Positions 36,732-45,662 of a stretch of DNA of 64,000 nucleotides are shown piece after piece (position 1 is the first letter of the stretch; each line of letters starts with the position of its first letter). The position numbers and the translations under genes are program-made. The notes below the pieces were generated by a model. It saw only the letters and a program-made list of their open reading frames with translations. It searched no databases and was not told the origin of the DNA. The DNA is from Polyangiaceae bacterium (GTDB lineage: Bacteria; Myxococcota_A; Polyangia; Polyangiales; Polyangiaceae), in assembly GCA_019637295.1 (NCBI GenBank), contig JAHBVX010000002.1, forward strand, positions 558,001 through 622,000. The letters are read 5' to 3'.

Positions 36732-38504
36732 ATGCCCGAGCAGCGAGCGCTGGGGAACATCCTCGTCCGCCATGGCGTAGTTCTGGCCGACGCCCTCGAG
36801 CCGCTCTACCTTCAGCAGCGGGAGAAGGGCACGCCGCTGCTCGAGCTCCTCATCCAGACCAAGGTGACGTCCGAGGCGGACGTCGCCCGAGCGCTCGCTC
36901 AGGAGTGTGGGCTCGAGTTCATCGCCCGCATCGACGTGGACTCCGTCGCCACGGGCGTCGCCACTCGCTTGCCCATCGGCTACTGCAAGAACCATCGCCT
37001 ACTGGTCACGGAGGAGGGGGACGAGCACGTCGACGTGGTGTGCGGCGATCCGCTGGACACGGACGCCCTCGACGACGTCCGCGCGACCTTCGGCAAGACC
37101 GTAATCGCCAAGGTGGCCGCCCCGGCGGACGTGGTGGACGCGATCAATCGCGTATTCGAGAAGCAAGACACCTCCAGCGAGCTGACGTCGGAGGAGGGTC
37201 AGGCCGTCCACGAAGAGGTCGACATCCTCGAGTCGGACGAGGATGCGCCCATCATCCGCTGGGTCAACGGCTTGTTCTTCAGCGCGGTGAAGGAGCGTGC
37301 CAGCGACATTCACATCGAGCCCGAAGAGAAGGAGGTCCTCGTTCGCTACCGCATCGATGGCCAGCTCTATGTGGCGCGTCGAGCCAGCCGGCAGTTCATG
37401 TCCAGCGTGGTGGCCCGCGTGAAGATCATGGCCGGCCTGAACATCGCCGAGAAGCGGCTTCCGCAGGATGGTCGCATCTCGCTGCGCATCGCGGGGCGGA
37501 GCATCGACGTTCGCGTCTCCACCATCCCTACCAGTCGCGACTCCGAGCGCATCGTGATGCGGCTCCTGCACAAGACGAACGTGCTGCTCGACCTGAACGA
37601 GCTCGGCTTCTCCTCGCGGGACTACCATCTGATGGGCTCGCTCATCCGGCGTCCGAACGGCATCATCTTGGTGACCGGTCCTACCGGCAGCGGCAAGACG
37701 ACCACGCTGTACGCGTGTCTGAACAAGATCAATCGCCCCAACATCAACATCCTGACCGCCGAGGACCCGGTCGAGTACGAGATCGCCGGCATCCATCAGC
37801 TGCCGGTACAGCCCAAGATCGGGCTCACCTTCGCCAGCGCCTTGCGCGCCTTCTTGCGCCAAGATCCGGACGTGATCATGGTCGGCGAGATTCGCGACAA
37901 AGAGACGGCCGAGATCGCGATCCACGCGTCGATGACGGGTCACCTGGTGCTCTCCACGATCCACACCAACGACGCGGCGGGCGCCGTCACACGCCTGGTG
38001 GAGATGGAGATAGAGCCATTCTTGGTGCGCTCGACCGTGATCGGCATCTTGGCGCAGCGCCTGGTTCGGTTGCTCTGCCCGCACTGCAAAGAGCCATACG
38101 AGGCGAGTGATTTCGAGCTCAGCCAGATCGGGATCGACCCGGAGCGGACTCGGCAGCGCGACGCCCGGCTGCTCTCGCCGCGCTACCAAGTGCACGGCAC
38201 CGAGTACGTGCCCATCGGCTGGCGGGGTCCGGGGATGCCCACCGTGTACCGAGCGAAGGGCTGCGATCGCTGCGAAGGCAAGGGGTTCTCCGGTCGCCTC
38301 GGCATCTACGAGCTGCTGGTCATGGACGACGCGGTCGGCTCGCTCGTGCTCAAGAACGCCGATGCGCAGACCATCAAGCGCGCCGCGCAGTTGCAGGGGA
38401 TGGACTCGCTGCGCGACGACGGAGCGCGCAAGGTGCTCGAAGGCTCGACCACCGTCGAAGAGGTCGTGGCCGCCACTCAGGAGGACGTCGTCGTCGACGA
38501 GTGA
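36732..38504 (+). CDS. gspE: type II secretion ATPase GspE
   Basis: 590 residues. An N-terminal MshEN/GspE-N domain (LGNILVRHGVVLADALEPLY ... LPIGYCKNHRLLV) precedes the ATPase core. Walker A is GPTGSGKTT (about 315-323), the Asp box VEYEIAGIHQ, Walker B PDVIMVGEIRD and the His box GHLVLSTIHTNDA. The tetracysteine zinc motif is complete (CPHC and CDRC). The hexameric cytoplasmic ATPase drives pseudopilus assembly through GspL and GspF. SD-like GGAG lies 7-8 bases before ATG 36732. The stop overlaps the GTG that precedes the gspF ATG. Confidence 0.97.
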   Translation: MPEQRALGNILVRHGVVLADALEPLYLQQREKGTPLLELLIQTKVTSEADVARALAQECGLEFIARIDVDSVATGVATRLPIGYCKNHRLLVTEEGDEHVDVVCGDPLDTDALDDVRATFGKTVIAKVAAPADVVDAINRVFEKQDTSSELTSEEGQAVHEEVDILESDEDAPIIRWVNGLFFSAVKERASDIHIEPEEKEVLVRYRIDGQLYVARRASRQFMSSVVARVKIMAGLNIAEKRLPQDGRISLRIAGRSIDVRVSTIPTSRDSERIVMRLLHKTNVLLDLNELGFSSRDYHLMGSLIRRPNGIILVTGPTGSGKTTTLYACLNKINRPNINILTAEDPVEYEIAGIHQLPVQPKIGLTFASALRAFLRQDPDVIMVGEIRDKETAEIAIHASMTGHLVLSTIHTNDAAGAVTRLVEMEIEPFLVRSTVIGILAQRLVRLLCPHCKEPYEASDFELSQIGIDPERTRQRDARLLSPRYQVHGTEYVPIGWRGPGMPTVYRAKGCDRCEGKGFSGRLGIYELLVMDDAVGSLVLKNADAQTIKRAAQLQGMDSLRDDGARKVLEGSTTVEEVVAATQEDVVVDE

Positions 38505-38509
38505 GCGCC

Positions 38510-39736
38510 ATGGCGGTCTACGAGTACAAGGGCATCCAGATCGACAGCGGCAAGCCCGTGAAGGGCTACCGGGATGCCGACAACGCCAAGGCGCTTCGCG
38601 CCGCCCTGCGGCGCGAGGGCGTGCTCCTGACGCTGGCGACGGAGGAGAGCCGTCGCAAGGTGAAGGCCAAGAAGGACGTCGATCTGCTGGCGTTCCTGCG
38701 CCGTCCGAGCACGGCGGACATCGCCGTGATGACGCGTCAGCTCGCGACCTTGGTTCGGGCGGGCGTGCCGCTGGTCGACTCGATCGCGGCGCTGACCGAG
38801 CAGGTCGAGAAGGAGCAGCTGGTTCGCATCCTCACGGCCGTGCGGGAGAGCCTCAACTCGGGGACCAGCTTCTCGAGGAGCCTCGAGGTGCACTCCAAGG
38901 TGTTCCCGCCTCTGTACGTGAACATGGTCGCCGCCGGTGAGGCCTCTGGCACCCTGGAGGCGGTGCTCGAGCGGCTGGCGGACTTCATGGAGGGACAAGC
39001 GCGCCTGAAGGGCAAGGTCGTCAGTGCGCTGGCTTACCCGGTGCTGATGCTCATCATCGGCACCGTGCTGGTCAGCTTCTTGATGGTCGCCGTCGTGCCC
39101 AAGGTGACCAGCATCTTCGAGAATCTGGGGCAGGCGCTGCCTTGGTACACCAGCGTGCTCATCTTCGTGTCCGATGCGATCGCGGGCTACTGGTGGCTCA
39201 TCTTGTCGCTTGGCGCGTTGGCCTTCTACTTGTTCCGTCGCTGGCGGCGCACCCCCGCGGGCACGCTGAAGTGGGACACCCTCAGCCTCAAGTGGCCGAT
39301 CTTCGGCCGCCTGAACCTGCTCGTCGCGGTCGCACGCTTCTCGCGTACGCTCGCGACGTTGCTGTCGAGCGGTGTGCCGCTGCTCAAGGCCATGGAGATT
39401 GGCCGCAACGTGCTGGAGAACGCCCGACTCTCCGGGGTCGTCGAGGAGGCAATCGGCTCCATTCGAGAGGGCGAGAGCATCGCCGAGCCGCTCAAGCGCA
39501 GCGGCTACTTTCCGCCCATGGTCACCCACATGATCGCAGTCGGCGAGAAGAGCGGGCAGCTCGAGTCCATGCTCGAGAACGTCAGCCGCGCTTATGAAGC
39601 AGACGTCGAGACCCGGGTCTCCACTCTCAGCAGCTTGCTGGAACCGTTGATGATCGTGGTGCTCGGTGGAGTGGTCGGGTTCATCGCCATGGCCATCCTG
39701 ATGCCCCTCATCCAAATGAACCAACTCGTACAGTGA
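38510..39736 (+). CDS. gspF: type II secretion platform protein GspF
   Basis: 408 residues. Begins MAVYEYKGIQIDSGK, the typical GspF opening, which supports ATG 38510 over GTG 38501. Two repeats of the T2SSF domain (about 70-190 and 275-395) each carry a transmembrane region: PVLMLIIGTVLVSFLMVAVV, a segment near WWLILSLGALAFYLF, and a C-terminal helix (LMIVVLGGVVGFIAMAIL). It is the polytopic inner-membrane core of the secretion motor. Confidence 0.96.
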   Translation: MAVYEYKGIQIDSGKPVKGYRDADNAKALRAALRREGVLLTLATEESRRKVKAKKDVDLLAFLRRPSTADIAVMTRQLATLVRAGVPLVDSIAALTEQVEKEQLVRILTAVRESLNSGTSFSRSLEVHSKVFPPLYVNMVAAGEASGTLEAVLERLADFMEGQARLKGKVVSALAYPVLMLIIGTVLVSFLMVAVVPKVTSIFENLGQALPWYTSVLIFVSDAIAGYWWLILSLGALAFYLFRRWRRTPAGTLKWDTLSLKWPIFGRLNLLVAVARFSRTLATLLSSGVPLLKAMEIGRNVLENARLSGVVEEAIGSIREGESIAEPLKRSGYFPPMVTHMIAVGEKSGQLESMLENVSRAYEADVETRVSTLSSLLEPLMIVVLGGVVGFIAMAILMPLIQMNQLVQ

Positions 39737-39739
39737 GCC

Positions 39740-40150
39740 ATGGCCCGCGGAAGCAACGACAAGCGCATCTTCTTCCCTTGGGAGGGACGGGGAGGCTTCT
39801 TCGCGGCGATCGGTCGGGGCAGGGTACGGCCGCTGCTGCTCGGCGCCTTGGTCGTGGGCTTCGTCGTGTTGGTGGGGGTTCGCGAACGGAATCGTGCCGG
39901 GTTGCGCCAGACCCGGGCCACCTTGCTCGACGCCCGCGCCGCCGTGGACGCCTTCATGGCACAAAACGACGGAGGGTGTCCGCCGAGCCTGGAGTCCGTT
40001 GGTGCGCTAGGACCCTTTCAAGGCGTGCCCCGGGATGCTTGGGGCAGGCCCCTGCGTTTGATCTGCCCGGGGCGAGACGACACCTCGCCCTACGACCTGA
40101 TGAGTGATGGCCCGGATGGCAAGCCCGGCGGGCTGGATCGAATCCGATGA
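39740..40150 (+). CDS. GspG-like membrane protein lacking a prepilin cleavage motif
   Basis: 136 residues, in the operon 3 bases after gspF and 10 bases before the true gspG. One transmembrane helix (about 32-46, LLLGALVVGFVVLVGV) is preceded by a 30-residue basic/aromatic cytoplasmic tail with no Gly-Phe-Thr-Leu-x-Glu processing site. The C-terminal domain resembles the end of major pseudopilins: VPRDAWGRPLRLICPG, then DLMSDGPDGKPGGLDRI, including the calcium-loop-like region. It therefore looks like a pseudopilin headpiece on a permanent membrane anchor. No frameshift or repeat is needed to explain it. A role in seeding or regulating the pseudopilus is inference. Confidence 0.7.
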   Translation: MARGSNDKRIFFPWEGRGGFFAAIGRGRVRPLLLGALVVGFVVLVGVRERNRAGLRQTRATLLDARAAVDAFMAQNDGGCPPSLESVGALGPFQGVPRDAWGRPLRLICPGRDDTSPYDLMSDGPDGKPGGLDRIR

Positions 40151-40160
40151 AGAGGACGAC

Positions 40161-40601
40161 ATGAACCACCAAACCACCACCCTTGACTCGGTGCGGCCGC
40201 TGCGCCGCACCCGCCGCGCGCTCGAGCGCGGCGCGACCCTCGTGGAAGTGCTGATCGTCGTGGCGATCATCGCGATGATCGCCGGTGGCGTCACCGTCTT
40301 CGCACTGCCGAAGTACCGCGACGCACAGAAGACCACGGCGGAGACCGGAGCGCGAGTGATCCGTCAAGCCGCACAGGCCTGGCAGGCTGGCAACAACGAG
40401 GTGTCGTGCCCGACCATGAGCCAGCTCGTGCAAGAGAAGCAGCTGGACCCTGGCGCCAACACGAACGACCCCTGGGGCACCGCCTATAGCCTGAACTGCA
40501 CGGAGGACGACGTGACCGTGATCTCCGCTGGACCCGACAAGAAGAAGGGGACTGCGGACGACATCCGCGTGCCCAAGGGTGCGGCCGGCGCCGAGGAGTG
40601 A
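40161..40601 (+). CDS. gspG: type II secretion major pseudopilin GspG
   Basis: 146 residues from ATG 40161. A long basic leader (about 30 residues) ends at the processing site RGATLVEV, with Gly at -1 and Glu at +5, followed by the hydrophobic helix VLIVVAIIAMIAGGVTVFAL. The C-terminal headpiece has the GspG signature NDPWGTAYSLNC and SAGPDKKKGTADDI, the calcium-binding loop. It forms the shaft of the pseudopilus after cleavage by a GspO/PilD peptidase encoded elsewhere. The leader is longer than usual, as often seen in myxobacterial prepilins. Confidence 0.9.
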   Translation: MNHQTTTLDSVRPLRRTRRALERGATLVEVLIVVAIIAMIAGGVTVFALPKYRDAQKTTAETGARVIRQAAQAWQAGNNEVSCPTMSQLVQEKQLDPGANTNDPWGTAYSLNCTEDDVTVISAGPDKKKGTADDIRVPKGAAGAEE

Positions 40602-42733: not shown

Positions 42734-44178
42734 TCATGCGCCTCTCGCTCCCTCGCCTCTTGCGCCGTCGAGTCCTCGGCGGGCGTCGTCGTACACGCAG
42801 CAAGCGGCGTGGTGTGGCGCTGATCATGGTGCTCGGAGCGCTCACCATCCTCACGGTCATGCTGGCGGAGTTCCAGGACGAGACCAGCGCTGAGTTCGGT
42901 AGCGCCCTGAGCCAGCGGGACGCGATCAAGGCGGAGTATGCGGCGAGGAGTGCGGTCAATCTGTCCCGCCTACTGATCGCATCCGAGCCCACCATTCGGC
43001 GTGGCCTGGCGCCGCTGTTCTTGCTGATGAAGCAGGCCCCTCCGCAGATCCCCGTGTGGGAGTTCGCCAGTCAAGTGCTCGGAGCCTTCAATGACGCCGA
43101 CGGTGCCGAGTCGTTCAAGTTGCTCGCGGGCGTGGACATCGGGGAAGGCGAGAATCTGGGCCTCGAGGGCGCGTCCTTCGAGGTGAAGGTGGTGGATGAG
43201 GACTCCAAGATCAACCTGAACGTGGCGGCGCGCGGTGACGCATTCAGTCAGGCGCGACTCGCGCAGCAGCTGATCGGACTCTTGGCGGGGCCACAGTACG
43301 ACCCGTTGTTCGAAGGTCGGGACAGGGACGGACAGTTCTCCGATCGCCAGACGATTTGTTCCGCGCTCATCGACTGGGTCGATCCGGACCAGGACGCGTA
43401 CGTCTGCGATCCCCACTCCGGCTCTGCTCAGCAGGCCGGTGCCGAAGATTCCTTCTATCAGCTGCTCAAGACGCCGTACGTGCGCAAGAACGCCGCCTTC
43501 GACAGCCTCGAAGAGGTTCGTCTGGTGCGCGGTGTTGGTGATGACTTCTGGTCGACCTTCATCGATCCGGATCCGGACAACCCAGACAAGCGGGTCGTGA
43601 CGGTGTGGGGGCAGGGCCAGATCAACGTCAACACGGCCAACGGCCAGACCATCTTGGCCGTGGTCTGCGGCGCCGCCGTGCCTGGCTCTCCGCTGTGCAC
43701 GGATCCCGCCGAGGCCGCGAAGTTCCTCGGCGCCATGACCATGGTGAAGGGCTTCACCGCCGGCGCGCCGCTGTTCGGCACGCCCAAGGCGTTTCTGAGC
43801 GCCATCAAGGGTCGGGGCATGTTCGGCTCCGTCCTGGCGGCCTTGGAGATGAAGCCGGTGGCGCTGCTGAGCGAGTCCGAGCTGCTCAAGGCCGTCACCA
43901 CCCAGAGCAAGGTGTTCTCGGTCTACGCTACGGGGGTCGTCAAGGCGGGCAAGCGCGAGACTCGGGTTCGGGTTCACGCGGTGGTGGACTACCGGGGCGT
44001 CCCCACCATCGAGAGCACGGGTCTCGGCGCGCTGCTCAGCCAAGGGGCCGGCCCGACCGGCGCGGTCAGCAGCACGCCGCCCGAGCAAAATCTGCCGGAC
44101 GGTGCTACGGAGGGAGCCATCGGTGCGGCCCTCACACCCGGTCCGGGCGGCAACGTGATCTACTATCGGATCGACTGA
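42730..44178 (+). CDS. gspK: type II secretion minor pseudopilin GspK
   Basis: 482 residues. The basic leader ends RRGVALIMVLGALTILTVML: Gly -1 and no Glu at +5, as is normal for GspK. The large tip domain includes SKINLNVAARGD and a helix-hairpin-helix-like SAM-fold half (VNTANGQTILAVVC), and a Cys pair in the acidic calcium-binding region (VDPDQDAYVCDPHSG). It caps the pseudopilus. It is longer than the 300-330 residues of enteric GspK. ATGA overlap with gspJ; its stop shares one base with the gspL start. Confidence 0.9.
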   Translation: MIMRLSLPRLLRRRVLGGRRRTRSKRRGVALIMVLGALTILTVMLAEFQDETSAEFGSALSQRDAIKAEYAARSAVNLSRLLIASEPTIRRGLAPLFLLMKQAPPQIPVWEFASQVLGAFNDADGAESFKLLAGVDIGEGENLGLEGASFEVKVVDEDSKINLNVAARGDAFSQARLAQQLIGLLAGPQYDPLFEGRDRDGQFSDRQTICSALIDWVDPDQDAYVCDPHSGSAQQAGAEDSFYQLLKTPYVRKNAAFDSLEEVRLVRGVGDDFWSTFIDPDPDNPDKRVVTVWGQGQINVNTANGQTILAVVCGAAVPGSPLCTDPAEAAKFLGAMTMVKGFTAGAPLFGTPKAFLSAIKGRGMFGSVLAALEMKPVALLSESELLKAVTTQSKVFSVYATGVVKAGKRETRVRVHAVVDYRGVPTIESTGLGALLSQGAGPTGAVSSTPPEQNLPDGATEGAIGAALTPGPGGNVIYYRID

Positions 44179-45662
44179 TGGCACGTTGGGTAGGCATAGA
44201 CATTCGAGCGTCGCACGTCCGGGCGGTGCTGCTCAGCACCAGCTATCGCCGCGTGGCCATCGAGCAGATGGTCGAGGTCGAGACGGATCGGGTCGGGAGC
44301 GTGGACGACGCGCTGCGCGCGGTGGGCGTCCCGACCACCCAACACGGCGAGGGTTTCGCCATCGCGCTGGAGGGCGAGCAGGCCTTCATCCATCGCCTGA
44401 CCCTGCCCGCCACCGCGACCAAACAGATCGAGGAGATCCTGCCCTACGAGGTCGAGGCGAACATCCCGGTCGATCTGGACGAGCTGGTCTACGATCACCG
44501 GCTCCTCCGGCGCGCCGCGCCCACTTCACCGCTCGCGGTGATGACCGCGGCGGCTCGCATCGAACTCGTGCGCGACCGCATCGAACGGGTCAAGAGCGTG
44601 CTCGGGCGGGAGCCGGATCGAGTCGGCGTCGGCCCGCTCTCGCTCGCGAACTTGGCCTCCCTCTCGCCGGAGCTGTCCGGACCCGGCCCCATCGCCCTCG
44701 TCGACCTCGGCGGTACGCGCACCGAGGTCGTGCTGCTGGCGTACGGCGAGCCGGTCTTCGCGCGCACCCTCAGCCGCGGCGTCGCCGGCCTGCCCGCGAG
44801 CGCGCCCGCCCTGGCCGCGGAGCTGCGCCAGACGTTCGCGTCCTGGGTGGCGCACGACGGGGAGCCCGTCGAGGTCGTCCACCTGGTTGGCGCCGGGGCC
44901 GACGCACCGGGCGCGGAGAACTACCTCTCGCACGAGCTCGGCCTGCTCATTCGCCCGCTGCCCTCCCTCGGCCTCGAGGGTCTCACCCTCGACAAGCTCG
45001 ACGTGCTGCCGCGCTTCGTCAAAGCCCTGTCGCTGGCGCTGGGCGCCGCCGGGCGCGGGCGGGATCTGGATCTGCGTCAGGGGCCGCTGGCGTTCCAGCG
45101 CGGCTACGGCTTCTTGAAGGAGAAGGTGCCGTTGCTCGTGGGTCTCGGCGCAGCAATCCTGATTAGCTTCTCGTTCGCGACCTGGGCAGAGATGAAGGCG
45201 CTAGGCAGGGATCACGAGACCCTCACCCGCTCCCTCGCGGCGCTGAGCAAAGAGGTGCTCGGTCAGCCCGCCGAGACCGCCGAGGAGGCGGCGACCCTAC
45301 TCCAGAAGGCGAAGGCCCAAGACGAGAAGGATCCCATGCCCAAGTTGGACGCCTTCGACGTGATCGTCGAGCTGTCCAACGCGATCCCGATGAGCATCAC
45401 GCACGACATCGAGGAGTTCGACATGCAGCGCGGGCACGTGAAGCTCAACGGCGTGGTGAGCTCCGCGCAAGACGCCCAACAGATCGCGGCGGCGTTGGGC
45501 GAGGTGAAGTGCTTCGACGCGGTCAAAATCGCGAAGGTCAGCCAGGTGGTCAACAGTGACCGCCAGAAATACGTGCTCGAGTTCGACGTGAAGTGTCCCG
45601 AGGATACGCCCAAGAAGAAGAAGGCCGAAGAGCCGGCTGCCGAGCCGGGAGGTGAGCCGTGA
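44178..45662 (+). CDS. gspL: type II secretion protein GspL
   Basis: 494 residues. The N-terminal two thirds is an actin/PilM-like cytoplasmic fold (WVGIDIRASHVRAVLLS, LPYEVEANIPVDLDELVYD, IALVDLGGTRTEVVLLAYG) that binds GspE. One transmembrane helix (about 320-340, VPLLVGLGAAILISFSFATW) leads to a periplasmic coiled coil and a ferredoxin-like domain, then a Lys/Glu/Pro tail. Longer than enteric GspL (about 400). Overlaps gspK by one base and gspM by 4. Confidence 0.9.
   Translation: MARWVGIDIRASHVRAVLLSTSYRRVAIEQMVEVETDRVGSVDDALRAVGVPTTQHGEGFAIALEGEQAFIHRLTLPATATKQIEEILPYEVEANIPVDLDELVYDHRLLRRAAPTSPLAVMTAAARIELVRDRIERVKSVLGREPDRVGVGPLSLANLASLSPELSGPGPIALVDLGGTRTEVVLLAYGEPVFARTLSRGVAGLPASAPALAAELRQTFASWVAHDGEPVEVVHLVGAGADAPGAENYLSHELGLLIRPLPSLGLEGLTLDKLDVLPRFVKALSLALGAAGRGRDLDLRQGPLAFQRGYGFLKEKVPLLVGLGAAILISFSFATWAEMKALGRDHETLTRSLAALSKEVLGQPAETAEEAATLLQKAKAQDEKDPMPKLDAFDVIVELSNAIPMSITHDIEEFDMQRGHVKLNGVVSSAQDAQQIAAALGEVKCFDAVKIAKVSQVVNSDRQKYVLEFDVKCPEDTPKKKKAEEPAAEPGGEP

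Follow-up and report, generated by a model that had tools for sequence, protein, structure and literature searches.

A conserved GspG paralogue predicted to stay anchored in the membrane is encoded between gspF and gspG in Polyangiales

The type II secretion operon of a Polyangiaceae bacterium encodes, between gspF and gspG, a further GspG-like protein that is almost certainly a membrane-anchored paralogue of the major pseudopilin. We refer to this protein as X, and to the whole 64,000-nucleotide stretch of DNA that was analysed as the window. Judged from its sequence, X is an old and conserved GspG paralogue that has lost the prepilin peptidase site and the residue Glu5, and whose polymer-forming helix is no longer under constraint. 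Sequence comparison and a structural model predict that X keeps a GspG-type periplasmic head together with a conserved cytoplasmic Pro-Trp-Glu (PWE) motif. An initial annotation of this DNA had described a permanently anchored GspG-like protein. Conservation, purifying selection and the predicted topology all bear out that description, but the specific function attached to it is left unsupported.

The X gene (39740..40150 with the stop included, + strand, ATG start) encodes a signal-anchored GspG paralogue of 136 amino acids. An ORF at this place with a pseudopilin-like C-terminal domain had been reported in the initial annotation; it is real, and both sequences quoted for it, DAWGRPLRLICPG and DGPDGKPGGLDRI, were found. 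Directly 5' lies the gene for the platform protein GspF (38501..39736, + strand; PF00482 T2SSF, E 8e-65). On the other side, 10 nt separate the X stop from the ATG at 40161 of gspG, which encodes the true major pseudopilin with the prepilin site RG^ATLVE (40161..40601, + strand). The ORF order gives the operon gspC-D-E-F-X-G-H-I-J-K-L-M-N, in which F, E and the PilM-like domain of L were labelled by Pfam, and G, H, I and J by prepilin motifs together with Pfam/NCBIfam. A missed 5' start carrying a prepilin leader was considered for X and ruled out. The gspF stop (39734-39736) ends 3 nt before the X start and lies in the X frame, 6 nt 5' of the ATG; therefore, no N-terminal extension of X is possible.

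Residues 94-133 of X match PF08334 (T2SSG) with an E-value of 3.4e-7 and 30.7 bits against a Pfam gathering cut-off of 21, and no other Pfam domain matches X at E up to 1. X aligned with the adjacent GspG at 35% over 74 residues by BLASTP (E 5e-6), and the best match by sequence among solved GspG structures was 2kep (E 3.8e-5, phmmer). These matches are too strong to be due to chance. X falls below the equivalog cut-off of TIGR01710 (29.4 versus 88.85 bits), a weak test given that the true GspG of the operon also falls below it (33.2). An AF2 model of X made from three sequences was of moderate confidence (pLDDT 68, pTM 0.50), with the helix and head mostly at pLDDT 70-90 and the first 23 residues mostly below 50. 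The model has one helix from residue 29 to 75, followed by short strands. When it was used as a Foldseek query, the top matches were all GspG or other pseudopilins, with GspG structures first. Aligned with VIA-align, the model superposed on V. vulnificus GspG with Z 8.8 and an rmsd of 2.0 Å over 84 residues, and on calcium-bound PulG with Z 8.6, while non-pilin proteins appeared only from Z 3.4 down. The GspG-like structure foreseen in the initial annotation is thus the one that was predicted. The periplasmic headpiece (residues 49-136; 39884..40147, + strand) contains a Cys80/Cys109 pair, a D-x-W-G signature loop and a partly degenerate calcium loop.

X has a single predicted transmembrane helix at about residues 29-48 (39824..39883, + strand), with no acidic residue and no prepilin cleavage site. 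The Pfam N_methyl profile did not match X, whereas it matched the neighbouring GspG, GspH, GspI and GspJ. Additionally, none of 51 distinct X orthologues has a prepilin motif near the membrane segment, in keeping with the earlier statement that the N-terminus lacks a prepilin peptidase site. The helix is clearly hydrophobic and is free of acidic residues in 50 of the 51. At 29 further loci the motif was found in none of the X proteins, while the motif pattern was present in 28/29 of the adjacent GspG proteins. Because two genes for prepilin peptidases are present elsewhere in the genome, the loss of the site is specific to X and not organism-wide. The N-terminal tail comprises 17-33 residues among the 51 orthologues and is basic in all but a few; since this basic tail precedes a hydrophobic helix, an N-in, C-out topology is predicted. 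In the window the tail is basic, cytoplasmic and about 28 residues in length, and the leader of the GspG in this operon is itself 24 residues long. The cytoplasmic tail first reported as long is thus present, but of moderate length. Prepilins must be processed before assembly, and in the filament Glu5 forms a salt bridge with the N-terminus of a neighbouring subunit (PMC10191384). With both features absent, X would not be expected to polymerise.

The distribution of constraint differs between the two proteins. Across the same 49 genomes the N-terminal helix is the most conserved part of GspG (3.25 bits), while the membrane helix of X (1.94 bits) is among its least conserved parts. The head loops of X reach 3.11-3.15 bits and its cytoplasmic motif 2.98 bits. 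Conservation of the GspG helix is as expected of a polymerising pilin, and the pattern in X, as read from these alignments, runs opposite. Nine residues are invariant in 26 diverse X proteins (T58, C80, P81, D99, W101, C109, S122, G124 and P125) and P13, W14 and E15 are nearly so; a surface loop at residues 82-97 is variable. These last three conserved residues lie within the cytoplasmic tail motif RIFFPWEGRGG (residues 9-19; 39764..39796, + strand), whose consensus is [IV]-x-[FL]-P-W-E-R-R. A P-W-E/Q core is recognisable in 58 of 62 distinct X proteins. Two of the other four have FSWE and FTWE, locus L050 has lost the motif, and in locus L026 a fused ORF was cut in the count although its X part has PWE. 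The motif had gone unmentioned in the earlier reading of the sequence.

The initial annotation had also seen mimicry of the calcium loop of GspG in X, which holds only in part. Some of the loop is kept, but the full fingerprint G-x-D...D-D occurs in 3/62 X proteins versus 53/58 neighbouring GspG proteins, and full mimicry is rejected for most members. In its place the C-terminal loop reads GPD...D-R/A in 39 X proteins and has GPSG...D-D-N-like endings in 15. Because the Asp fingerprint is mostly broken, calcium binding by X is doubtful.

X was found between gspF and gspG in 51 of the 52 loci inspected. The exception, locus L053, is a stretch without gspF and gspG, and the gspG of that genome lies on another contig (L101). 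Among Polyangiales genomes of at least 90% completeness, X is present in 127/132; a profile match at E 1e-12 was obtained in 128/132, from which genome G125 was removed, its match being GspG only. In G125 gspG follows directly after gspF and there is no X (locus L095). Uncleaved relatives without PWE occupy the same place in L094, from the same order, and in L083, L085 and L087, from other families of the class. In the remaining class families examined (L084, L088-L093 and L102) only a motif-bearing gspG was found at or after gspF, as it was in 19 of 20 loci from other classes. At L122, the remaining locus, an isolated uncleaved protein resembling GspG was found in another class (L122:1984-2457, + strand); the 4-kb stretch contained no match to GspF. 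This survey covered Myxococcota, and beyond the phylum a single contig scan reached only close relatives. Type II secretion does not generally require X, given that at least one Polyangiales genome that keeps gspF-gspG (G125) and most of the other Myxococcota families inspected do without it.

Selection on X was compared with that on GspG in same-genus pairs, where dN/dS was 0.09-0.17 for X, close to the 0.07-0.15 for GspG. Between the window and a congener, identity was 67% for X and 89% for GspG, and X diverges faster in several pairs. At locus L026 (L026:1486-2352, + strand) X and gspG share one open frame of 289 amino acids with no stop between them, which could represent a fusion, an internal start or an assembly error.

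In a phylogenetic tree the X proteins grouped together, separate from true GspG, in one clade (65 sequences; SH-like support 0.81), and the uncleaved copy of L087 fell outside it. The cysteine pair of X is common to GspG of the class Polyangia (89/89) and occurs in 0/21 GspG proteins from other classes of the phylum. Because the pair is found only in Polyangia GspG, a gspG duplication within this class is the most likely origin of X. In GspG itself (40161-40601 in the window) the pair is probably a class-specific disulfide. Recent tandem gspG copies that have lost the prepilin motif or Glu5 were found in L086 and L097, each sister to the gspG of its own locus (support 0.99 and 0.98). The first (L086:2672-3106, + strand) is a second GspG-like copy directly after gspG, without a prepilin motif, in another class-level genome, and its tree position indicates an independent origin. 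The second (L097:2226-2669, + strand) also follows gspG; it keeps Gly(-1) and has Gly in place of Glu5 (RGLTAVG). Locus L096 carries, on the - strand and clustered in a locus without gspF, two motif-less GspG-like proteins and a third with GCTLIE, all related to the GspG of the same genome.

Taken as a mechanism, X would be neither cleaved nor polymerised and would stay within the assembly platform of type II secretion as a membrane protein of N-in/C-out topology. Through its tail motif it would dock onto a cytoplasmic or platform partner, for which GspE, GspF and the PilM-like cytoplasmic domain of GspL are candidates (gspL, 44178..45662, + strand; PF11104 PilM_2, E 2.6e-11). The head may meet GspG where the pseudopilus has its base and so load, seed or limit filament growth. 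This function as a whole, in which a GspG paralogue is bound to the platform through PWE and offers its head at the pseudopilus base, has in our view an approximately even chance of being correct. The initial annotation had offered X as a cap, seed or regulator of pseudopilus assembly, roles that are inseparable from sequence. A more specific version is tentative and falls well short of that: X would be an extra core platform subunit of Polyangiales type II secretion, docked by PWE, whose permanent GspG head gives the base of the pseudopilus a fixed template or gate, and the tandem copies elsewhere in Myxococcota would be convergent. To our knowledge, no dedicated subunit at the pseudopilus base has been described.

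The same anatomy would also suit a brake or terminal cap, in which X is a rival of GspG for the platform, or takes the last subunit position, and by being anchored stops or limits pseudopilus growth, in effect a dominant-negative GspG retained as a regulator. Encoding X and GspG in one operon could set their stoichiometry, and the independent tandem copies of L086 and L097 fit repeated selection for a non-polymerising GspG. However, a dispensable regulator would be expected to be gained and lost among genomes, and no sign of this is seen in Polyangiales, where X persists in 127/132 genomes. We regard the brake as unlikely, and a positive adaptor or loading role is weakly favoured over it.

Less likely still is a role on the sensor or substrate side, in which the head binds exoproteins or detects a cue in the periplasm, with GspE or GspL receiving a signal through the tail and the pseudopilus left untouched. 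The changed calcium fingerprint (3/62 against 53/58) and the variable surface loop 82-97 would fit such a head, but the parts that X has retained are the D-x-W-G signature loop and the C-terminal loop of GspG, and by gene order X belongs with gspF and gspG.

Platform docking also has a special form, to which we assign a similarly small probability, in which the tail imitates the PilN peptide that binds the PilM groove, with the PilM-like domain of GspL as the docking site of the tail. The tail motif consists of a hydrophobic pair followed by Pro-Trp-charged-charged, the GspL of the operon has a PilM_2 domain, and the genome's own PilN begins with MIRINLLPQRKR before its membrane helix, a layout like that of X. 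Yet MIRINLLPQRKR has neither the Trp nor the Glu, the motif is too short for statistics, and GspL already has a PilN part of its own as a fusion. The N-terminal peptide of PilN is known to bind a groove of PilM (PMC6325625); the resemblance of the X tail to it is a lead only.

Finally, a decaying, functionless gspG duplicate, as the missing prepilin motif and faster divergence of X might suggest, is very improbable and is refuted by a reading frame open in 127/132 genomes, purifying selection (dN/dS 0.09-0.17), invariant residues and a near-invariant PWE; the initial annotation had allowed for a merely degraded copy beside orthologues with intact motifs, and the orthologues at the gspF-gspG position are likewise without them.

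Comparison with known systems places X closest to GspG/PulG/EpsG/XcpT (PF08334, TIGR01710), with which it shares the head fold, the D-x-W-G loop, the S-x-G-P C-terminal loop and the operon position. It differs from them in having no prepilin peptidase site or Glu5, an unconstrained membrane helix, the PWE motif in its tail and a mostly broken calcium fingerprint. Thus X, by sequence, is GspG-derived yet fails the defining N-terminal features of GspG.

X belongs to the pseudopilin superfamily, as do GspK and the minor pseudopilins of the tip, and it lacks Glu5 as the subunit capping the tip does. GspK keeps a cleavable class III signal and is located at the tip, whereas X has no cleavage site and has a GspG head. 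The cleavable class III signal of GspH, GspI, GspJ and GspK was absent from X both by N_methyl and among the 51 orthologues. The tip complex of the pseudopilus is capped by a subunit without Glu5 (PMC10191384).

PilN of type IVa pili resembles X in its short, Pro-containing cytoplasmic tail, one membrane helix and periplasmic domain. In X, however, the periplasmic domain is GspG-like, and the likeness of the motifs is weak. The PilN domain PF05137 is absent from X; its only matches in the genome are the pilus PilN and the region of gspL.

The nearest comparable case is mitochondrial GspG. The GspG1 and GspG2 proteins of some protists are, like X, GspG homologues, and they are extended at the N-terminus and belong to a system in which no prepilin peptidase is known (PMC8134430). 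The mitochondrial proteins keep maturation features including Glu5 (PMC8134430), while X does not. Searches of open-access literature on uncleaved GspG-like proteins and on myxobacterial type II secretion yielded no description of a protein like X. With its PF08334 match, X may be called GspG by automated annotation and so be hidden from view.

How the membrane delivers pseudopilus subunits to the base where the filament grows, and what starts and stops that growth, has yet to be settled for type II secretion and type IV pili. A natural, conserved GspG that is apparently uncleavable and non-polymerising is what one would engineer in order to trap the step of subunit handover, and X gives crosslinking, deletion and structural studies a defined target.
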